Shown here one piece after another: positions 54,376 to 64,000 of a stretch of DNA of 64,000 nucleotides. The notes below the pieces were generated by a model that ran no database searches, had not been told where the DNA came from, and saw only the letters and a list, made by a program, of their open reading frames with translations. A program made the position numbers and the translations under genes. This stretch comes from Rhizobium jaguaris. GTDB taxonomy: Bacteria > Pseudomonadota > Alphaproteobacteria > Rhizobiales > Rhizobiaceae. The DNA lies in the NCBI RefSeq assembly GCF_003627755.1, contig NZ_CP032695.1:2294001-2358000 (forward strand). The letters are read 5' to 3'. Within the stretch, counting starts at the first letter, position 1. Each line of letters begins with the position of its first letter.

Positions 54376-55662
54376 TCAGCCTTTTGACGGCTGCCGGCGT
54401 CTTTCCTCCTCGTCTTCCAACGGGGGAGGCTCCCAGCCGAATACGCTGCGTCCGCCGTAAAAAGCGGACTTGTCAAATTCGCCAGCAACAATCTCCTTGA
54501 GATCGGGACCGGTGACATATCGTTCGAGCAAGCGGGACTGATCGTCCAGGCGTTTCAAAGCCTGCAATTCCTCGTCGCGACCCAGCCGTCCCTTTCTCAC
54601 CGCCGATTTCATCACGCTGATGGTCTCGTCATAGACCTTCAACGGAACCGGGAAAGGGTGGCGGTCCTTGCCGCCATGTGCGAGCGAAAACCGGGCGGGA
54701 TCGGAGAAGCGGTACGGCGCGCCATGCACCACTTCCGCAACCATTGCCAGCGCCTTGACCGTTCTTGCGCCAACGCCCGATGTCAGCAGCAGGTCCTCGA
54801 AATCCACCGGCCCACGGTCGGCGGCAGCCGCCAGATTTCCGTGCAGTCGCCGCATGTTCACATCGGTTTCGCGCACATCATGATGTGCCGGCATGATCAA
54901 ATGCGGCAGCATGGGTTGCGCGTGGTCTTTGCCAACTGCCGTCGGCTCGGCTTGCAGCGCGGCCAACTCGCACACGATCTTATCCGGCCCCAAAGTGGCT
55001 AGCAAATCGAGTTGACCCGCGCGTGACTGATCGGCGCGCCTATCGGCGAGATTGACGATCTCGCCCTGGTCTCTTCCCTCGATGGCCGCATGCGGGGAAT
55101 CAAGGAAGCTTGTCAGCCCTTCGGACAGCCAATGATACCGCCGTGCCTGTCGCCGATCGCCGTTCATTCCCTGCTGGACGACGACCCATTTGCCATCGTC
55201 CGTCACGATGAAGCCGTGCAGATAGAGGTCGAATCCGTCCTGAAGTGCGGCGCTGTCGACCTTGGCGACCAGCCGGCTTGTCGTCGCAAGCGCCGCGCCG
55301 TCGATACCGACACGATTGCCGATAGCCGCCAACTCATCCGGCGTCTTGCGCGACTGAGCACCGCGACCGCCGCAGACATGGATTCCAAGGTCGCCGGCAA
55401 GCGGCGTCAGACCCCGTTTCAGCGCACCGAGGACGCTGGTAGTAATGCCCGAGGAATGCCAGTCCATGCCCATGACGGCGCCAAAAGACTGGAACCAGAA
55501 CGGACTGGCCAACCGTCGCAATAGTTCGTCACGCCCATAATGCTGAACCACCGCCTCGGTAATCACGGCGCCCAAACGCGTCATCCGGTCGCCGAGCCAT
55601 TTCGGCACCCGGCCTCCATGCAGGGGAAGATCAGCGTTGCCCGCTCTTTGCGCCAAGTTCAT
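54376..55662 (-). CDS. DUF763 domain-containing protein
   Basis: A 428-residue protein of the DUF763 family. Its start A-D-L-P-L-H-G-G-R-V-P-K-W-L and F-G-A-V-M-G-M-D-W-H-S-S-G-I-T-T near 70-85 are the family marks, as is K-W-V-V-V-Q-Q-G-M-N near 160. No catalytic function is established. ATG 55662 has GGAGAG 3-4 nt upstream and fits the family start better than 55683. The family is known mainly from archaea and scattered bacteria, so presence here may reflect transfer. Confidence 0.87.
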   Translation of the reverse strand: MNLAQRAGNADLPLHGGRVPKWLGDRMTRLGAVITEAVVQHYGRDELLRRLASPFWFQSFGAVMGMDWHSSGITTSVLGALKRGLTPLAGDLGIHVCGGRGAQSRKTPDELAAIGNRVGIDGAALATTSRLVAKVDSAALQDGFDLYLHGFIVTDDGKWVVVQQGMNGDRRQARRYHWLSEGLTSFLDSPHAAIEGRDQGEIVNLADRRADQSRAGQLDLLATLGPDKIVCELAALQAEPTAVGKDHAQPMLPHLIMPAHHDVRETDVNMRRLHGNLAAAADRGPVDFEDLLLTSGVGARTVKALAMVAEVVHGAPYRFSDPARFSLAHGGKDRHPFPVPLKVYDETISVMKSAVRKGRLGRDEELQALKRLDDQSRLLERYVTGPDLKEIVAGEFDKSAFYGGRSVFGWEPPPLEDEEERRRQPSKG

Positions 55663-55883
55663 CGCTCTCCAAATCAGATCCAAAGCAATGTAGTACCGGC
55701 AACCGGATTACGCCACGCACGATATCGATCCGCAGCATCCAGCTTGAACATTAATATGCGAGGGTGACGCTTAGGCCGCCGGCCGAAAAACATTTTATAA
55801 TGCACTATATCTATAGAATGTAAGCTCTTACCTTTCGCCTGCATATCCTTCACCCATGGGGCGGTGGAACTAGGAGAGTGCGG

Positions 55884-57101
55884 ATGGATTTAGCCCTGCA
55901 ACAGACCGATCGAATTCGCCCAGTGGCGACCCAATTGACGACCGAAGAAGAGGCAATCGCGACAGCGCGAGCACTGGCCAGACGATTTGCCGAGTCGGCT
56001 TCCGATCGCGACGTTGATCGATTGCTGCCGCATCATGAGCTTGAGGCCCTGTCGCAATCGGGTCTGCTTTCGATCACCGTTCCCTCCGAATATGGCGGGC
56101 TCGACGTTTCCAATGCGGTTCTGGCCGAGGTTACCGCCATTCTCGCCGAAGCCGATGGCTCGATCGGGCAGATACCGCAAAACCATTTCTACATTCTCGA
56201 AGCCTTGCGAACCGACGGCAGCGAAGAGCAGAAGAAATTCTTTTTCGGCAGAGCTCTCGCCGGCGATCGCTTCGGCAACGCGCTGTCCGAACGCGGCACC
56301 AAGACAGTCGGCCACTACAATACCCGCATCAGCCGCGACGGGCTCGGCTACAGGATCAATGGCAGCAAATATTATTCAACCGGTGTCGTTTTCGCCGACT
56401 GGATCACGGTCTTCGCACTGGACGAGGAGGACCGGCTGACCATGTCGTTCCTGCCGCGCGGCACCGAGGGAATCGAGATCATCGACGATTGGGACGGGTT
56501 CGGCCAGCGGACGACCGGCAGCGGCACAACGATCCTCCACAATGTCTATGCGCGCGCGGATGCCGTCGTCTTCCATCACAAGGGGTTCGAGCGCCCGACA
56601 ACCATCGGTTCCGTCGGGCAGATCATCCATGCCGGCATCGACCTCGGCATTGCCCGCGCTGCTTTCGCCGAAACCGTCGAATTCGTCAAAACCAAGTCGC
56701 GCCCCTGGATGGACAGCGGCGTCGAACATGCCTCCGACGATCCCTTGACCATCGCCAAGATCGGACAGATCGCCATTCGTCTCGAGGCCGCGACCGCTGT
56801 CGTCGAACGTGCCGGTCAGAAGGTCGACGTGGCCCAGATCGATCCAAGCGAAGCAAATGTCGTTTCGGCCACGCTTGCCGTCGCGGCTGCGAAGGTGCTG
56901 ACGACGGAAATCGCGCTTGAAGCGTCGAACACGCTGTTCGAACTGGCCGGCACCTCATCCGTTCGCGTCGGCCTCAATCTCGATCGCCATTGGCGCAATG
57001 CGCGTACCCACACACTGCACGATCCCGTGCGCTGGAAATATCATGTCGTCGGCAATTATCATCTCAACGACGTGACGCCACCGAAGAACGGCGCACTTTG
57101 A
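55884..57101 (+). CDS. SfnB-like acyl-CoA dehydrogenase-fold flavin oxidoreductase (copy 1)
   Basis: A 405-residue acyl-CoA dehydrogenase-fold flavoprotein of the SfnB/DszC-like group, which oxygenate sulfur compounds with reduced flavin rather than dehydrogenate CoA esters. Features: V-P-S-E-Y-G-G-L near 72, G-S-I-G-Q-I near 100, N-G-S-K-Y-Y-S-T-G near 165, and the ending R-H-W-R-N-A-R-T-H-T-L-H-D-P typical of the group. The catalytic Glu of true acyl-CoA dehydrogenases is not evident. ATG 55884 has GGAGAG 7 nt upstream. It converges with a second copy, with a terminator between; together with the Rbs-type transporter it suggests organosulfur use. Confidence 0.88.
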   Translation: MDLALQQTDRIRPVATQLTTEEEAIATARALARRFAESASDRDVDRLLPHHELEALSQSGLLSITVPSEYGGLDVSNAVLAEVTAILAEADGSIGQIPQNHFYILEALRTDGSEEQKKFFFGRALAGDRFGNALSERGTKTVGHYNTRISRDGLGYRINGSKYYSTGVVFADWITVFALDEEDRLTMSFLPRGTEGIEIIDDWDGFGQRTTGSGTTILHNVYARADAVVFHHKGFERPTTIGSVGQIIHAGIDLGIARAAFAETVEFVKTKSRPWMDSGVEHASDDPLTIAKIGQIAIRLEAATAVVERAGQKVDVAQIDPSEANVVSATLAVAAAKVLTTEIALEASNTLFELAGTSSVRVGLNLDRHWRNARTHTLHDPVRWKYHVVGNYHLNDVTPPKNGAL

Positions 57102-57111
57102 GCCCTCAAGC

Positions 57112-57147
57112 AAGAAGGCCCATTCCGATGCCGGAACGGGCCTTCTT
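57112..57147. terminator. Bidirectional terminator between the two SfnB-like genes
   Basis: AAGAAGGCCCATTCCG and CGGAACGGGCCTTCTT pair over 16 positions with one mismatch and a 4-nt loop; the AAGAA/TTCTT ends give T-rich tails in both directions. It lies between convergent genes. Confidence 0.85.
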
Positions 57148-57171
57148 CCATGCACCTTGGGAGGATGCTGA

Positions 57172-58383
57172 TCAGCTATAGAGGCTGACGGCCGGAATCT
57201 TGCCGTTCAAAACGAACTCACCGACTTCCTTTGCCTTGTAGAAAACCGGATCGTGCAGCGTATGGGTGCGGACGTTGCGCCAGAAGCGGTCGAACCGGTA
57301 GTGCGAAGCGGTAGAGCGGGCGCCGGTCAATTCGAAGACGCGCGAGGTGATGTCGAGCGAAACGTTGGTCGCGTGTACCTTCGCCGCATAGGCTTCCGCC
57401 GCCGCTTCCCCACGCTCACGAGCCGTGACCTCCCTGCCGCAGGACAGCGCCGCCTCAACGGCCTGCGCGGCGCTATCGGCGAGCGCGACCGAGGCTTTCA
57501 GCGCAGCAGCGAACTCCCCGACCCGCTCAAGGATATAGGGATCGTCCGCCGCCTTCCCGACGCCGGATGTGATCCATGGCCGGGTTGTCGAACGAACATA
57601 GTCGAGCGCCGCCTCGAGCGCACCCTCGGCGGTGCCAAGGTAGAAATTGACGAAGACGAGCTGGATCAGCGGGGTGTTGAAGGTCGAAAGCACCGGCGGC
57701 GGCGCATCCGGTTCGGAGGGTAGCGCAATGAAATCCTCCTCGTAGACCGGAAAATCGCGGAACTCGACGCTCCCGCTATCGGAGAGCCGCTGGCCGATAT
57801 TGTCCCAATCGTCATTGGTGACATAACCCGGCCGATTGGTCGGTACGGCGAAACTGGCGATCTTGCCGTCAAGGGCGGCGTTGGCATTGATATAATCGGA
57901 GATATGGGCCGCCGTCGAAAACGATTTGCGGCCGTTGAGCGCATAGGTGTTGCCGCGCCGGGTCAGCTCCAGACCCGGATCACGCGGATTGACGGCAGCG
58001 CCCCAATAATAGTTTTTCGCTACCGTTTCCACGCCGAGCGCATGGGCGCGAGCGTCATCCTCGATCGCCCAATAGATATATTGGCTATTGACGAAGTGAT
58101 AGCCAATAAGTTGGCCCAGCGAGCTCTCGCCGCGCGCGATGATGCGCACCAGCTTCAGCGCATCGACCCAATTGAGACCGCCGCCGCCGATCTGCGACGC
58201 ATGCAGCGCGTTGAGCAGACCGGAATTCTTAAGCCGGATGATTTCCTTCAGCGGCGGCAGCCCTTCGCGGTCGAGTTCGGCCGCACGCTTCGCGAAATCG
58301 GCGGAAATCTCGGCCGCGGTGGACAATAGGGCTTCCCGCCCGGTACTATGGGGGGTGGCGAAAACAACATTGGATTGGCTCAT
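57172..58383 (-). CDS. SfnB-like acyl-CoA dehydrogenase-fold flavin oxidoreductase (copy 2)
   Basis: A 403-residue paralogue of the gene it converges with. G-G-G-G-L-N-W-V near 65, F-V-N-S-Q-Y-I-Y-W near 97, N-G-R-K-S-F-S-T near 152, and the group ending R-F-W-R-N-V-R-T-H-T-L-H-D-P. ATG 58383 is preferred to the in-frame 58512 because the latter adds a cysteine-rich, atypical extension across the hairpin. It lies 86 nt downstream of the RbsB-like gene on the same strand, with a stem-loop between, so it is co-transcribed with that binding protein. Confidence 0.88.
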   Translation of the reverse strand: MSQSNVVFATPHSTGREALLSTAAEISADFAKRAAELDREGLPPLKEIIRLKNSGLLNALHASQIGGGGLNWVDALKLVRIIARGESSLGQLIGYHFVNSQYIYWAIEDDARAHALGVETVAKNYYWGAAVNPRDPGLELTRRGNTYALNGRKSFSTAAHISDYINANAALDGKIASFAVPTNRPGYVTNDDWDNIGQRLSDSGSVEFRDFPVYEEDFIALPSEPDAPPPVLSTFNTPLIQLVFVNFYLGTAEGALEAALDYVRSTTRPWITSGVGKAADDPYILERVGEFAAALKASVALADSAAQAVEAALSCGREVTARERGEAAAEAYAAKVHATNVSLDITSRVFELTGARSTASHYRFDRFWRNVRTHTLHDPVFYKAKEVGEFVLNGKIPAVSLYS

Positions 58384-58421
58384 ATCCAAACTCCCGATCC
58401 ATCGATCTCTTGAAATGAAGA

Positions 58422-58450
58422 TGCGGCGGCACCGAAAACGTGCCACCGCA
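58422..58450 (-). other. Intercistronic stem-loop after the RbsB-like gene
   Basis: TGCGGCGGCAC and GTGCCACCGCA pair over 11 positions with one mismatch and a 7-nt loop, 19 nt after the RbsB-like stop. Confidence 0.65.
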
Positions 58451-58468
58451 CAAGTCTTGTTGCGAAGC

Positions 58469-59515
58469 TCAGAACAACTTGTCCGGAATCCAGCTCGCGG
58501 TCGCAGCATCACTGGTGCTGAAGGCCGGGATCTTGGCGGCCAGATCCTCGATGGTCTTGACGCCAGCAGCGCGCAGGCTGTCCTGGGTCAGAAGTGTCGG
58601 TTTGATGGTGATCTGGTGCGGAATCTCCTGGCCGGCGATCTGTAGAGCGGCCGCGCGAACGGAAACGGCACCGACCACGGCCGGATTGGTGGCGACGGTC
58701 GCGACCCACGGGCTTCCCGGCTCGGTGATCTCCTGGATATCGGCGGTCGAGACATCGGCGGAATAGATTTTGATCTTGTCGGCGATGCCAAGGTCGCCGG
58801 CCGCGAGCTTCACGCCACGGGCAAATTCGTCGTAGGGCGCAAAGACCACCTTGATATCGGGATTGGCCGTCAATGCCGCCTTGGCCTGGTCGGCAGTGGT
58901 GGTGGCAGTCGTGTCGCTGACATTGCCGAAGCGCGCCTTTTCGACCACGCCGGGATTGGCGGCCCTGAACTTGTCCCAGACCTCGTTGCGACGGTCGAGC
59001 GGTGCAAAGCCCGCGACATAGACGTAGCCGGCGGCAAAGCTCTTGCCGTTGTCCTTCACCACCTGGTCGAGCGCTTGCTGTGCGAGTTCGTGATCGCTCT
59101 GCTCGACCTGGGGGATCTTCGGATTGTTGAGGTTGACATCGAAGGCGACGATCTTAACGCCCTTGTCGAGCGCCTGCTGCACAACATCGCCGAGCGATTC
59201 CGGCAGGCCGTGATCGATGACGATACCGCTGACGCCGAGATTGACGGCCTGGAGGATCTGCTCGCGCTGCTCGGCGGCATCCTGGCGGCCTGGGAAGACG
59301 CGGAGATCGATGCCGAGTGCCTTGGCTTGCGCTTCGGCGCCCGCCTGATAGGCCTGGAAGAAATCGCCGGCGGAGATGTAGCTGATCAGCGCGAGCTTGA
59401 CGCCCCCCTTGTTGAATGGTGCGGGCGCACCGGCGATGCCATCGGCATTCGCCGGCTGCATGAAGACGAATGGAATGACGGCGGCAGACAGGGCGAGCCG
59501 TGCGAGAGATTTCAT
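58469..59515 (-). CDS. Ribose-type ABC substrate-binding protein (RbsB-like)
   Basis: A 348-residue periplasmic binding protein of the ribose/galactose (cluster B) type. The Sec signal is M-K-S-L-A-R-L-A-L-S-A-A-V-I-P-F, cleaved near N-A-D-G. G-V-S-G-I-V-I-D-H-G near 95 and V-V-F-A-P-Y-D-E-F near 215 are typical. It is divergent from RbsA-like and RbsC-like genes, with 227 nt between, so the three probably form one importer. It shares its transcript with the second SfnB-like gene, which links uptake to flavin oxygenation. Ligand unknown. Confidence 0.88.
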   Translation of the reverse strand: MKSLARLALSAAVIPFVFMQPANADGIAGAPAPFNKGGVKLALISYISAGDFFQAYQAGAEAQAKALGIDLRVFPGRQDAAEQREQILQAVNLGVSGIVIDHGLPESLGDVVQQALDKGVKIVAFDVNLNNPKIPQVEQSDHELAQQALDQVVKDNGKSFAAGYVYVAGFAPLDRRNEVWDKFRAANPGVVEKARFGNVSDTTATTTADQAKAALTANPDIKVVFAPYDEFARGVKLAAGDLGIADKIKIYSADVSTADIQEITEPGSPWVATVATNPAVVGAVSVRAAALQIAGQEIPHQITIKPTLLTQDSLRAAGVKTIEDLAAKIPAFSTSDAATASWIPDKLF

Positions 59516-59583
59516 CGTCGTGTTTCCTTATGGTCGGTCGAAAGCGTCGTCTGACGGGCAGCTGGTTCCCGGCGGCGCGTCAA

Positions 59584-59616
59584 TCTATTAGAAATAAACT
59601 CTATATTTTTAGTAGA
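59584..59616. promoter_or_regulatory. AT-rich dyad between RbsB-like and RbsA-like genes
   Basis: TCTATTAGAAATA and TATTTTTAGTAGA form an imperfect inverted repeat (11 of 13 positions) in a strongly AT-rich part of the divergent region. Candidate shared operator and promoter zone. Confidence 0.5.
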
Positions 59617-59742
59617 CTAAATGATCCGATTTTTGCGGCTTCCGGAGATTCTTTGTTCCGCCTGTGGCTTTGTGCCGGAAATGACGTGCCTGGAAGTTCA
59701 ATCGCAGCCTAGGGCATTATCCGGGAAACCGGAAAATCCTGT

Positions 59743-61224
59743 ATGCCCCTGCTCCAAGTCGAAAACCTCACGCGCAGCTTCGGCCCAACCCGCGCGCTTG
59801 CCGATGCGACGCTCTCCATCAAGCGCGGCGAGATCGTTGCCCTGATGGGCGCGAATGGCGCGGGAAAGTCGACGCTAGTGAAAATATTATCCGGCTCACT
59901 GCCTGCCGATGCTGGCAGGATTACCTTCAAGGGACGGAGCTTTGCCCCGGCAAACCCTGCTGAAGCGACAAAAGCGGGGATCGTCACCGTCCATCAGTCG
60001 ACCGATCTCGTTGGACCTCCCGGCCTGACGGTTGCGGACGCATTGCTATTGCCTCGTTTCGCCGATCGTCGTGTGCGGTTTTTCGTATCGCGCGCCGGCA
60101 TCCGCGCCCAGGCGCAAGCCATACTAGACATCGCCGGCTTCTCCCTGCCGCTTGATCGGGATTTCGGCGATCTGGCGGCGGCGGACCGGCAATTGGTGGC
60201 CGTGGCGCGTGCATTGGCGAATCAGGCCGATCTGCTGATCCTCGACGAACCGACAGCGAGCCTCTCCGGGCAGGAAAGCAGCCGCCTGTTCGATATCCTC
60301 CTGCGGCTGAAGAGCCAGGGATTGGCGATCCTTTATATCTCTCATCGCACAGCGGATCTGGATGCGGTCGCGGATCGCGCGCTCGTCATGCGCGGCGGGC
60401 AGGTGGTGGGCTCGTTTGTCCGTCCGATCGATTTTCCGGCAGCTATCGAAACCATGATCGGCCGCAAACTGCAATCGGCACGGCCGGGTGCACGCAACGT
60501 TGGCGGCACGCCGATCTTCGAAATGCGCCATGCACGCCTGCTGCCCAACGCCACGCCATTTGATCTTTCGCTGCACGAGGGTGAAGTCGTCGCCATTACC
60601 GGCGTGCTCGGTGCGGGCAAAAGCCGGCTCCTCTCGGCGCTCTTCGGCCTAAACCAACTCATCGAGGGCGATATGCACCTCGATGGCAAACCCTATCGAC
60701 CGAAGAGTCCTGCTGAGGCGATCGCCGCCGGCGTTGCCATGGCGGCGGAGGACCGGCACCGTTCTTCGCTGATGCCTGCCGCCTGGCCCGGCAATTCGGT
60801 CGCCGGCACGATCAGCCTGCCGCATCTCGGCCGCTGGTATCCGAGCGGTCTCCTCTGGGGCAGCCGCGAGCGCCGGGAAGCGGAGAAGGCGATCGAGCGG
60901 CTGCGGATCAAAGCCTCGGGCCCCTTTTCCTCCGTTTGGACGCTCTCCGGCGGCAATCAACAGAAGGTGGTGCTTGCCCGCTGGGAAGCGGAGCAAAGCC
61001 GGCTTCTGCTGCTCGACGAACCCTTCCAGGGCGTCGATGTCGGCGCCCGGCATGACATCATCCAGGCCATACGCCGCCGGAGTAATCGCGCCACATTGAT
61101 CGCCACCTCCGACCCTGAGGAAGCCTACGAGGTCGCCGACCGCATTCTCACAATCGACCGGCACAGCCTAAGCACCGTCGCCGATGCGGCGAACCCACAT
61201 GCTATTGAGGACATTTCCGCATGA
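59743..61224 (+). CDS. Ribose-type ABC ATP-binding protein (RbsA-like)
   Basis: A 493-residue tandem ATPase. First domain: Walker A G-A-N-G-A-G-K-S-T near 40 and Walker B L-L-I-L-D-E-P-T-A-S-L. Second domain: Walker A variant G-V-L-G-A-G-K-S-R near 290, signature L-S-G-G-N-Q-Q-K near 405 and D-E-P-F-Q-G-V-D-V-G-A. In the first domain the signature is degenerate (D-L-A-A-A-D-R-Q), which is normal in this family. It overlaps the permease start by 4 nt. Confidence 0.92.
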   Translation: MPLLQVENLTRSFGPTRALADATLSIKRGEIVALMGANGAGKSTLVKILSGSLPADAGRITFKGRSFAPANPAEATKAGIVTVHQSTDLVGPPGLTVADALLLPRFADRRVRFFVSRAGIRAQAQAILDIAGFSLPLDRDFGDLAAADRQLVAVARALANQADLLILDEPTASLSGQESSRLFDILLRLKSQGLAILYISHRTADLDAVADRALVMRGGQVVGSFVRPIDFPAAIETMIGRKLQSARPGARNVGGTPIFEMRHARLLPNATPFDLSLHEGEVVAITGVLGAGKSRLLSALFGLNQLIEGDMHLDGKPYRPKSPAEAIAAGVAMAAEDRHRSSLMPAAWPGNSVAGTISLPHLGRWYPSGLLWGSRERREAEKAIERLRIKASGPFSSVWTLSGGNQQKVVLARWEAEQSRLLLLDEPFQGVDVGARHDIIQAIRRRSNRATLIATSDPEEAYEVADRILTIDRHSLSTVADAANPHAIEDISA

Positions 61225-62288
61225 CATCCGTGGACAATGACAGCTTCCCGCAACCGGCTGATCGGACCGAGCCGGCGCCCGCAGATCCGGCAATCGGCTG
61301 GTTCACCGCCCTCAGCGGCATCCTGCGCTCCGGCGCGGTCTTCATCTTGCTCGCCTTGCTCGTCATCGGCTTCACTGCCGCCCAGCCCGCCTTCATCAAC
61401 ATCAACAATCTCATGAGCATTCTGCAGGCGGTCTCCGTCGTCGCGATCCTTGGCGCCGGCGTCACAGTGACACTTGCCGTCGGCGGGTTCGACCTCTCGA
61501 TCGGCGCAGTCGCCGCATCGAGTGTCATGGCGGCCAGCTATGCGATGATCGTCTGGCGGCTCGACGCCTATGCAACCGTGCCGCTGGTGCTGGCCTTTGG
61601 TGCGGCGATCGGCCTGATCAACGCCTTCATCATCGTCCGGCTGAGGGTACCCGATCTCCTGGCGACCCTGTCGATGATGTTCCTGCTCTCCGGCTTGCAG
61701 CTCATCCCGACCGCCGGGCGCTCGATCTCCTCCGGACTGATCCTGCCTGACGGCTCGAAGGCTGCCGGCAGTTACGATCCGCATTTCATGCTGATCGGCC
61801 GCTACAACCTGTTCGGTACCGTGCCGGTCTCAGTCGTCCTGATGATCCTTGTCGCCCTGGTGCTGTTTGTATTGACGGAGCGGACCCGCATCGGCCGCCT
61901 GCTTTTCGCCACCGGCGGCAACGAGGTGGCGACGCGGCTCGCCGGAGCGTCGACGACACGGCTGAAGACGCTGGCCTATGTCATTTCCGGCACGCTGGCC
62001 TCGCTCGGCGGCATTGTCATCGCCGCTCGCGTCGGCCGGGGCGATGTCTCGTCCGGCGGTTCGCTGCTGATGGACGCGGTCGCCGCCTCGTTGATCGGCT
62101 TTGCCGTATTGGGCCTGCGCCGTCCGAACGTGCTTGGCACCATCGCCGGTGCCGTTTTCGTCGGTGTGCTGCTCAACGGACTGACCATGCTGAACGCCCC
62201 CTATTACACGCAGGACTTCGTCAAGGGCGCCGTCCTCGTCGGCGCCCTTGCCCTGACCTACGGCCTCGGGCGAAACGGCGAGCGCTGA
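61221..62288 (+). CDS. Ribose-type ABC permease (RbsC-like)
   Basis: A 355-residue inner-membrane permease with about eight to ten helices. G-G-F-D-L-S-I-G-A-V near 88 and N-A-F-I-I-V-R-L-R-V-P-D-L-L-A-T-L near 134 are family marks, as is F-A-T-G-G-N-E-V-A-T-R-L-A-G near 232. A cytoplasmic Pro/Asp-rich N-terminus of about 40 residues precedes the first helix. It overlaps the ATPase gene and forms the pore for the RbsA-like ATPase. Confidence 0.92.
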   Translation: MTSVDNDSFPQPADRTEPAPADPAIGWFTALSGILRSGAVFILLALLVIGFTAAQPAFININNLMSILQAVSVVAILGAGVTVTLAVGGFDLSIGAVAASSVMAASYAMIVWRLDAYATVPLVLAFGAAIGLINAFIIVRLRVPDLLATLSMMFLLSGLQLIPTAGRSISSGLILPDGSKAAGSYDPHFMLIGRYNLFGTVPVSVVLMILVALVLFVLTERTRIGRLLFATGGNEVATRLAGASTTRLKTLAYVISGTLASLGGIVIAARVGRGDVSSGGSLLMDAVAASLIGFAVLGLRRPNVLGTIAGAVFVGVLLNGLTMLNAPYYTQDFVKGAVLVGALALTYGLGRNGER

Positions 62289-62402
62289 ATTACAAGCATC
62301 GCCCGAGGAACTTTTCTCTCGAACAAACGCCTTTTGGAATAGCGTTCCTCCTTATTTCATTAAATACATATAATTTATGGATTATCGCAGAGAGGGAACC
62401 CC

Positions 62403-63413
62403 ATGAACCATGACCAAAAATCCGGCTTTGGACGCCGGGAAATCCTGAAACTCGCAGCCGTCGCCGGCGCGACCTTTGCAGGCACCGGCGTTTTTGCCGG
62501 GCAATCGGCTGCGGCCGATGATGATAGCTTGTCGCTGAAGGGTAAGCGCATCGCCATCAGCGCCACCGGCACAGACCATTATTTCGATCTGCAGGCCTAT
62601 AATGCTCAGATCGCAGAGGTGAAAAGACTCGGCGGCGAACCGATCGCAGTCGATGCAGGCCGCAACGACGGCAAGCTCGTCGCGCAGCTTCAGACGCTGA
62701 TTGCGCAGAAGCCGGATGCTATCGTCCAGATTCTCGGCACTCTCAGCGTCATCGACCCGTGGCTGAAAAAGGCTCGTGACGCTGGCATTCCGGTACTGAC
62801 CGTCGATGTCGGCTCCACGAATTCCATCAACAACACGACCTCGGATAATTGGGGCATTGGCAAGGACCTCGCCTTACAGCTCGTCTCCGATATCGGTGGC
62901 GAAGGCAATATCGTGGTCTTCAACGGCTTCTACGGGGTCACGCCCTGCGCGATCCGCTACGATCAGCTCGTCAATGTCGTCAAATATTTCCCGAAAGTGA
63001 AGATCATCCAGCCGGAACTTAGGGACGTTATCCCGAACACGGTCCAGGATGCCTTCACGCAGATCACCGCGATCCTCAACAAATATCCCGAGAAGGGATC
63101 GATCAAGGCGATATGGTCCGCCTGGGATATTCCACAGCTTGGCGCGACCCAAGCTCTCGCGGCAGCCGGGCGCACGGAAATCAGGACGTACGGCGTCGAT
63201 GGAAGCCCGGAAGTCCTGCAGCTTGTCGCCGATCCAAATTCGCCCGCGGGCGCCGATGCCGCCCAGCAGCCAGCCGAGATCGGCCGCACCGCGATCCGAA
63301 ACGTCGCCAAGCTTTTGGCCGGCCAGACCTTGCCGCGAGAAACCTATGTGCCCGCACTGCTGGCCAACAAGACAAACGTCGCCGAGGTAACCAAGAAGCT
63401 CGGTATCGGGTGA
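62403..63413 (+). CDS. Ribose-type ABC substrate-binding protein, second copy, Tat-exported
   Basis: A 336-residue cluster B binding protein with a twin-arginine-like signal (F-G-R-R-E-I-L-K-L-A-A, ending near S-A-A-A-D). V-Q-I-L-G-T-L-S-V-I-D near 95 and K-A-I-W-S-A-W-D-I-P-Q near 235 are typical. It follows the permease gene by 114 nt and precedes another ATPase gene by 58 nt, with a strong stem-loop in between. It may belong either to the upstream RbsAC pair or to a second importer that runs off the window. Its Tat signal and sequence differ from the RbsB-like protein upstream. Confidence 0.88.
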   Translation: MNHDQKSGFGRREILKLAAVAGATFAGTGVFAGQSAAADDDSLSLKGKRIAISATGTDHYFDLQAYNAQIAEVKRLGGEPIAVDAGRNDGKLVAQLQTLIAQKPDAIVQILGTLSVIDPWLKKARDAGIPVLTVDVGSTNSINNTTSDNWGIGKDLALQLVSDIGGEGNIVVFNGFYGVTPCAIRYDQLVNVVKYFPKVKIIQPELRDVIPNTVQDAFTQITAILNKYPEKGSIKAIWSAWDIPQLGATQALAAAGRTEIRTYGVDGSPEVLQLVADPNSPAGADAAQQPAEIGRTAIRNVAKLLAGQTLPRETYVPALLANKTNVAEVTKKLGIG

Positions 63414-63423
63414 ACGTCTGGCA

Positions 63424-63449
63424 GATGATGCGGCTGGGGCCGCATCATC
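63424..63449 (+). other. Intercistronic stem-loop after the second binding-protein gene
   Basis: GATGATGCGGC and GCCGCATCATC pair perfectly over 11 bp with a 4-nt loop, 10 nt after the stop. No T tract; probably a 3'-end protector. Confidence 0.7.
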
Positions 63450-63471
63450 TCACCTCCATTGGATCGATGAA

Positions 63472-64000
63472 ATGACAGCCTTGGCTCCACAATTCGAAAA
63501 GACCGATGACCACGTCATTCACTTTGATCGTATCGTGAAACACTTTGGCGGGGCACAGGCGCTTGCCGGGGCTTCCGTCACGATACGGCCCGGCACGGTT
63601 CACGGCCTGGTCGGCCAGAACGGCGCCGGCAAATCGACGCTCATCAAGCTGCTCGCCGGATTGCACAGGCCGGATGAAGGGCGGATCGAGATCGAAGGCC
63701 GAGCTTTCGATCATCTGACACCGCATCTTGCAGAGTCTCTCGGAATCCAGTTCATCCACCAGGACCGGCTGCTGGTGCCGACCTTCACCGTCGGCGAGGC
63801 GCTGTTTCTCGGTCGCGAAGCTCGTATTGCCGGCACGCCGCTTTTGGACCGCCGGCGCATGCAGCGCCGCGCGCGTGAGATATTGGCCAATTATTTCGGG
63901 GTGAATCTGCCCAATAACGTCCTGATCGGGGAACTCTCCACTGCGGAACGGCAGATCGTTCAGATCACCCGCGCGCTCCTGAACCAGCCAAAGGTGCTTG
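63472..64000 (+). CDS. Sugar ABC transporter ATP-binding protein, RbsA type (N-terminal part)
   Basis: From ATG 63472 the frame stays open to the window end (176 codons). It encodes the first ATPase domain of an RbsA-type protein: Walker A G-Q-N-G-A-G-K-S-T near 51, Q-loop F-I-H-Q-D near 95, and a signature-like E-L-S-T-A-E-R-Q-I-V-Q-I near 160. It is distinct from the RbsA-like gene upstream, so the cluster contains two tandem-ATPase genes and probably two importers. The permease partner would lie beyond the window. Confidence 0.88.
   Translation, partial: MTALAPQFEKTDDHVIHFDRIVKHFGGAQALAGASVTIRPGTVHGLVGQNGAGKSTLIKLLAGLHRPDEGRIEIEGRAFDHLTPHLAESLGIQFIHQDRLLVPTFTVGEALFLGREARIAGTPLLDRRRMQRRAREILANYFGVNLPNNVLIGELSTAERQIVQITRALLNQPKVL

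Follow-up and report, generated by a model that had tools for sequence, protein, structure and literature searches.

A Rhizobium jaguaris locus that may couple a 5-methylthioribose-type importer to sulfur flavin monooxygenases

The thio-sugar 5-methylthioribose (MTR) derives from methylthioadenosine (MTA), which arises in polyamine synthesis and other reactions, and Escherichia coli lacking the salvage pathway excretes it (PMC3228920, PMC6302742, PMC10986504). Uptake of MTR with methionine salvage by MtnKA has been described for mtrACB and mtnKADCB of the MetJ regulon (PMC3228920) and for mtnXYZ (PMC4239095). This report concerns a gene cluster at the end of a 64,000-nt stretch of Rhizobium jaguaris DNA (GCF_003627755.1, contig NZ_CP032695.1, positions 2,294,001 to 2,358,000; G000:C2:2294001-2358000; hereafter the window) from a genome of 8.0 Mb in four contigs. 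Flavin monooxygenases related to sulfur enzymes are encoded there among sugar-type ATP-binding cassette (ABC) importers. The cluster is probably a sulfur-starvation module which imports MTR or a closely similar 5-(alkylthio)pentose and obtains sulfur from it through oxygenation rather than phosphorylation. An initial annotation had proposed organosulfur uptake and desulfurisation, perhaps of a thio-sugar. That proposal, in which substrate and function are predicted ones, is supported by a third monooxygenase gene (LLM2), by a promoter box common to an msuE-sfnG-sfnB operon, by the MTR-type family of one substrate-binding protein (SBP1) and by the enzyme tree.

From 55.9 kb the gene order was SfnB (+), DszX (-), SBP1 (-), RbsA1 (+), RbsC1 (+), SBP2 (+) and RbsA2 (+). 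All of the genes initially annotated were present, with the convergent enzyme pair, the divergence of SBP1 from RbsA1 and RbsC1, and the second binding protein and ATPase following. Past the window lie the rest of RbsA2, two permease genes (RbsC2, RbsC3) and LLM2; a luciferase-like monooxygenase (LLM) gene was among those to be looked for beyond 64 kb, and LLM2 starts about 3 kb past the end. The features were:

55884..57101, plus strand: SfnB, flavin monooxygenase of acyl-CoA-dehydrogenase fold (group D), probable S-oxygenase (TIGR04022 score, tree)
57113..57146, no strand: hairpin between the convergent SfnB and DszX 3' ends, probable shared terminator (fold energy)
57172..58386, minus strand: DszX, DszC/MsuC-type flavin S-monooxygenase (nearest solved relatives, tree)
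58421..58451, minus strand: hairpin in the SBP1-DszX gap, possible attenuating or mRNA-stabilising structure (terminator-like scan, 12 pairs)
58469..59515, minus strand: SBP1, CUT2 binding protein of 5-methylthioribose type
59594..59616, minus strand: promoter box conserved in orthologous upstream regions, 78 nt from the SBP1 start
59743..61224, plus strand: RbsA1, ABC ATPase (likeness to mtnKA-linked ATPase)
61221..62288, plus strand: RbsC1, permease (likeness to mtnKA-linked permease)
62403..63413, plus strand: SBP2, second CUT2 binding protein, twin-arginine-like signal by eye (nearest solved chain 4wt7)
63472..64000, plus strand: start of RbsA2, second ATPase, cut by the window end
G000:C2:2361065-2362465, beyond the window: LLM2, DmoA/NtaA family (TIGR03860)

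The locus resembles MtnKA salvage in its proposed first step, import of MTR by an ABC system: SBP1, RbsA1 and RbsC1 are nearest to a rhizobial mtnKA-linked importer. It differs in that no match to MtnK or MtnA was found in the window's genome, their place being taken by flavin monooxygenases and by a box that organosulfur genes share. With the Sfn/Msu pathway of dimethylsulfone and methanesulfonate and its Dms1-3 extension (PMC13352529) it has in common group D S-oxygenases, group C C-S monooxygenases, an MsuE reductase and sulfur assimilation; it differs by a DmoA-type LLM2 in place of SfnG and by the MTR-type importer. Pseudomonas putida PP_2762 is a dms2/dms3 homologue and PP_2765 an SfnG homologue (PMC13352529), while PP_2757-PP_2761 have been described as sugar transport genes (PMC3056050); since PP_2762 is numerically next to these, a third lineage may also have an importer of sugar type next to enzymes of this kind. 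The DszABC (4S) dibenzothiophene pathway also joins a DszC-like S-oxygenase to a DszA/DmoA-family C-S monooxygenase, but DszX fell below the DszC cut-off (284 vs 850 bits, NF043015) and an importer is present here. The two-flavoenzyme logic of S-oxidation followed by oxidative C-S cleavage is that of CmoO/CmoJ S-alkylcysteine salvage (PMC10863075), in contrast to which the S-oxidation enzymes here have the acyl-CoA dehydrogenase fold and the importer is of sugar type. The dihydroxyacetone phosphate (DHAP)-methanethiol shunt likewise recovers MTA sulfur under air (PMC5893883), but runs via MtnA and an aldolase.

MTR importers with mtnKA, DHAP shunts and dimethylsulfone use are already known (PMC3228920, PMC6302742, PMC10986504, PMC7843439, PMC4239095, PMC5893883). 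The route proposed here would differ from MtnK, DHAP-shunt and isoprenoid-shunt salvage. In the open-access literature, covered mostly through titles, abstract openings and passages, no description was found of an MTR-type importer coupled to sulfur flavin monooxygenases, and no paper on six R. leguminosarum tags (pRL90244-pRL90250) guessed to lie near these genes.

A response of the locus to sulfur supply is hinted at most strongly by a shared promoter box, a putative operator of ~23 nt upstream of SBP1 obtained from the alignment of orthologous upstream regions. At three mismatches or fewer it occurred at 2 sites in the genome (reversed pattern, 0). Its second occurrence ends 28 nt upstream of an MsuE flavin reductase gene (230.5 bits, cut-off 212.5), after which come SfnG (614, cut-off 383), an ABC importer (branched-chain type, named by eye) and an SfnB (609, cut-off 431). 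At two mismatches or fewer, 60 genomes of the genus gave 68 sites in 48 genomes (reversed control, 0). SBP1 was preceded by 45 of these, and by our tally 17 of the other 23 had neighbours of organosulfur type. Five of the 17 adjoined msuE-sfnG operons, three DszC-type/LLM clusters that include a LysR gene and an importer of oligopeptide type, four LLM clusters containing an acetyltransferase, one a gene of the broad TauD family, two SsuA/SsuB-type genes below curated cut-offs, and two SsuA-type genes with an FAD enzyme, where SsuA scored below its cut-off and was present at one of the two sites. Genome-wide, SfnG, SsuD and three MsuE proteins passed their cut-offs, with SsuD and SfnG located outside the cluster. 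A flavin reductase and a regulator had also been named as genes to look for beyond the window; flavin reductases were found elsewhere in the genome, but none of the genes from SfnB to LLM2 was recognisable as a regulator. LysR genes occur near the loci of some relatives and none in the window's cluster. In two genomes (L144, L146) the box lies between photolyase and hydrolase genes, Pfam families being named for L144 only.

SBP1 appears to be a CUT2 binding protein of MTR type, its predicted MTR binding resting on kinship. By both sequence and fold its nearest solved structure was 4ry8, titled as a 5-methylthioribose transporter binding protein, and 29 of 34 likely pocket positions were the same in SBP1 and an mtnKA-linked protein. 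The remaining importer subunits agreed: RbsA1 was 43% identical to the mtnKA-linked ATPase of Sinorhizobium meliloti (RbsA2, 32%) and RbsC1 was 52% identical to the mtnKA-linked permease (RbsC2 and RbsC3, 28-29%). A "sulfonated or thio-sugar" substrate had been envisaged; the thio-sugar fits better than the sulfonated sugar, given the title of the SBP1 relative and the position of SsuD and SfnG elsewhere in the genome.

Sister clades of binding proteins were compared by gene context; distant contexts were taken from genome draws and plasmids. In the sister clade of SBP1, mtnK and mtnA (MTR kinase and isomerase) adjoined in 34 of the 38 fetched loci. In the clade of SBP1 itself neither stood beside the importer in any of 17 loci, and sulfur-type flavin monooxygenases were nearby in 12. 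Between the sister clades, then, mtnKA is exchanged for monooxygenases. A paralogue of SBP1 (54-57%) that forms its own clade stood beside RbsC1 in some loci (L047, L232, L266, L276). In three genomes of one family, from another class of the same phylum (L261-L263), an MTR-type importer was seen without mtnK/mtnA or monooxygenases by these queries.

Two SfnB-like enzymes had been annotated. The first is SfnB, passing TIGR04022 at 606.3 bits (cut-off 430.9), but DszX reached 260 bits against the same model and is of DszC/MsuC type; its best solved relatives were the methanesulfinate monooxygenase MsuC (6u76, 251 bits), 8cda (251) and DszC (3x0x, 248). In a tree of 19 rows DszX grouped with 8cda, MsuC and DszC, and the window's SfnB with SfnB proteins, the branch of all SfnB/DszC-type rows having support of 84/98. 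True acyl-CoA dehydrogenases had been named as the counter-case: both enzymes fell apart from isovaleryl-CoA dehydrogenase, which formed a separate group with three unnamed relatives (95/99), so that this identity was ruled out by a tree containing one named acyl-CoA dehydrogenase. LLM2 passed TIGR03860 (NtaA/DmoA family; 577.8 bits, cut-off 279.7) and was 54% identical to dimethyl sulfide monooxygenase DmoA (6ak1) over 454 residues; it is a putative DmoA-type group C monooxygenase that may share the activity of DmoA. A second SfnB, 75% identical to that of the window, lies at G000:C1:2515718-2516851 (L005, L087), with the other cluster genes not nearby by these queries. In other Rhizobium clusters (L063, L064), two genes for DszC-type enzymes (34-39% to DszX) accompany LLM genes, a LysR gene and genes of an oligopeptide-type importer.

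Conservation of order across Rhizobiales had been suggested as a check. Order was largely kept, with an exchangeable second ABC system. Of 37 genomes of the genus, 30 had a DszX orthologue (at least 77% identity), against 0 of 24 genomes from other families of the order, so that the arrangement exceeds what chance would give. The 29 orthologous loci fetched had a convergent SfnB near DszX in 27 (more than 1 kb between them in 5), LLM2 in 26 (in one of the other three the contig ends), RbsA1/RbsC1 in 21 and the SBP2-RbsA2-RbsC2-RbsC3 set in 14. A contig scan, from which the best 80 of 459 relatives were named and whose loci overlap in part with the genomes of the 29, gave DszX in 78 (same strand, after SBP1), SfnB in 76, LLM2 in 66 (of the 14 loci without it, 7 are truncated by the end of a contig or flank), RbsA1/RbsC1 in 60 and the SBP2 set in 45-46. 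Because the last two are patchy, the two importers appear partly exchangeable around a SfnB-DszX-SBP1 core with LLM2; in six genomes without RbsA1/RbsC1 beside the core, an RbsC1 orthologue (77-83%) lay elsewhere. The core genes were kept across Rhizobium, and a compact relative was found in Paraburkholderia. At one locus (L045, G011) RbsA1 was not found and RbsC1 was seen only as a 119-residue match of 92%, with SfnB, DszX, SBP1 and LLM2 retained. Loci of R. leguminosarum type (L032, several of L035-L046) were adjoined by one more LLM gene, a Dpp-type importer and a gene of class V aminotransferase fold.

In the proposed mechanism, sulfur limitation would switch on the divergent SBP1-DszX and RbsA1-RbsC1 transcripts. 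SBP1, RbsA1 and RbsC1 would import the thio-sugar, as family, fold and context suggest. SfnB and DszX, judged by DszC and the group D relatives, would convert the thioether sulfur to sulfoxide or sulfone with reduced flavin from the co-regulated MsuE; group D enzymes that draw electrons from MsuE oxidise dimethyl sulfide to the sulfoxide and the sulfone (PMC13352529, 2026). LLM2 would then cut the C-S bond to give methanesulfinate and an oxidised pentose. Alternatively LLM2 could be DmoA-like and act on the thioether itself, releasing methanethiol, with the group D enzymes downstream. None of the group C enzymes of PMC13352529 had detectable dimethyl sulfide oxidation, so LLM2 more likely acts after S-oxidation unless it is DmoA-like. 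The one-carbon sulfur product would pass through methanesulfonate to sulfite by MsuC-type enzymes and SsuD (Sfn/Msu/Ssu route). As a wider claim, it is about an even chance that rhizobia and some relatives have an additional, aerobic form of MTR salvage, in which excreted MTR is taken up and two-component flavin monooxygenases remove its sulfur. Importers of one family would there have gained sulfur monooxygenases as partners in place of the MTR kinase and isomerase, and have joined the sulfur-starvation regulon.

Several observations weigh against this MTR reading. Identity between SBP1 and 4ry8 is only ~34%, MTR is assumed to be the ligand bound in 4ry8, and position 101, a D in both SBP1 and 4ry8, is Q in mtnKA-linked proteins. 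Five of the 17 SBP1-clade loci lacked a monooxygenase at 30% identity or more nearby (two are cut by contig ends), and the lower-identity loci are 30, not randomly chosen, of 98 such matches of the family draw. To explain the monooxygenase label on the binding-protein tree takes 5 changes, and some of its long branches join; genome G004 possesses MtnK in addition to the DszX locus. Six of the 23 box sites outside the locus adjoin genes without a clear sulfur role (two of them a photolyase gene), and the full SBP1 box is absent upstream of SfnB.

A possible but less favoured explanation is the same desulfurisation module with another sulfur-containing sugar or polyol as substrate, such as MTR sulfoxide, a thio-polyol or some 5-alkylthio-pentose besides MTR; SBP1 and SBP2 might also bind two related ligands. 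The box and the enzymes point to sulfur but leave the choice of substrate open, the first importer is in part replaced by the second (60 and 45-46 of 80 loci, respectively), and SBP2 is close to 4wt7 (589 bits), whose ligand we take to be allitol; the pocket positions common to SBP1 and the mtnKA-linked protein speak instead for MTR. CUT2 importers usually carry sugars. An ordinary pentose or 5-deoxypentose carbon importer with sulfur genes as chance neighbours would also suit the five clade loci without a sulfur monooxygenase and the acceptance of 5-deoxyribose by MtnK and MtnA (PMC10986504). It is nevertheless improbable, since DszX stands behind SBP1 on the same strand in 78 of 80 loci, the box is common to msuE-sfnG, and mtnK/mtnA are missing from 17 of 17 clade loci and from the genome. 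Detoxification or modification of a non-sulfur substrate, or acyl-CoA-dehydrogenase-like catabolism, is very improbable: the fold and TIGR03860 do include non-sulfur enzymes (LadA, nitrilotriacetate monooxygenase), but the best named relatives of all three enzymes act on sulfur compounds, the isovaleryl-CoA dehydrogenase group stands apart, and the box is that of msuE-sfnG.

The cluster suggests an undescribed way of feeding on a sulfur compound excreted by other cells. Were the MTR reading true, aerobic sulfur scavenging in plant-associated bacteria would be an added terrestrial source of methanesulfinate or methanethiol, SBP1, SfnB and DszX would gain testable substrates, and a "sugar ABC transporter" annotated across Rhizobium would become a sulfur-nutrition locus.

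The terminator initially proposed between SfnB and DszX is made probable by a strong hairpin at ~57113-57146 (-26.9 kcal/mol, z -4.82; 0 of 200 shuffles equally stable), but this has no good T tract and is absent from the list of the consensus terminator scan. The terminator-like scan gave 20 sites over 14 kb against 13.0 expected. A shared transcript of enzyme and binding protein is plausible for SBP1 and DszX from their 82-nt same-strand spacing, with a hairpin inside the gap. A long open reading frame adjoining SfnB (window 54376-55683, minus strand) had no NCBIfam model match and was DUF763-like by eye only. Similar DNA was present in 134 plasmid records, of which 101 were named Rhizobium.

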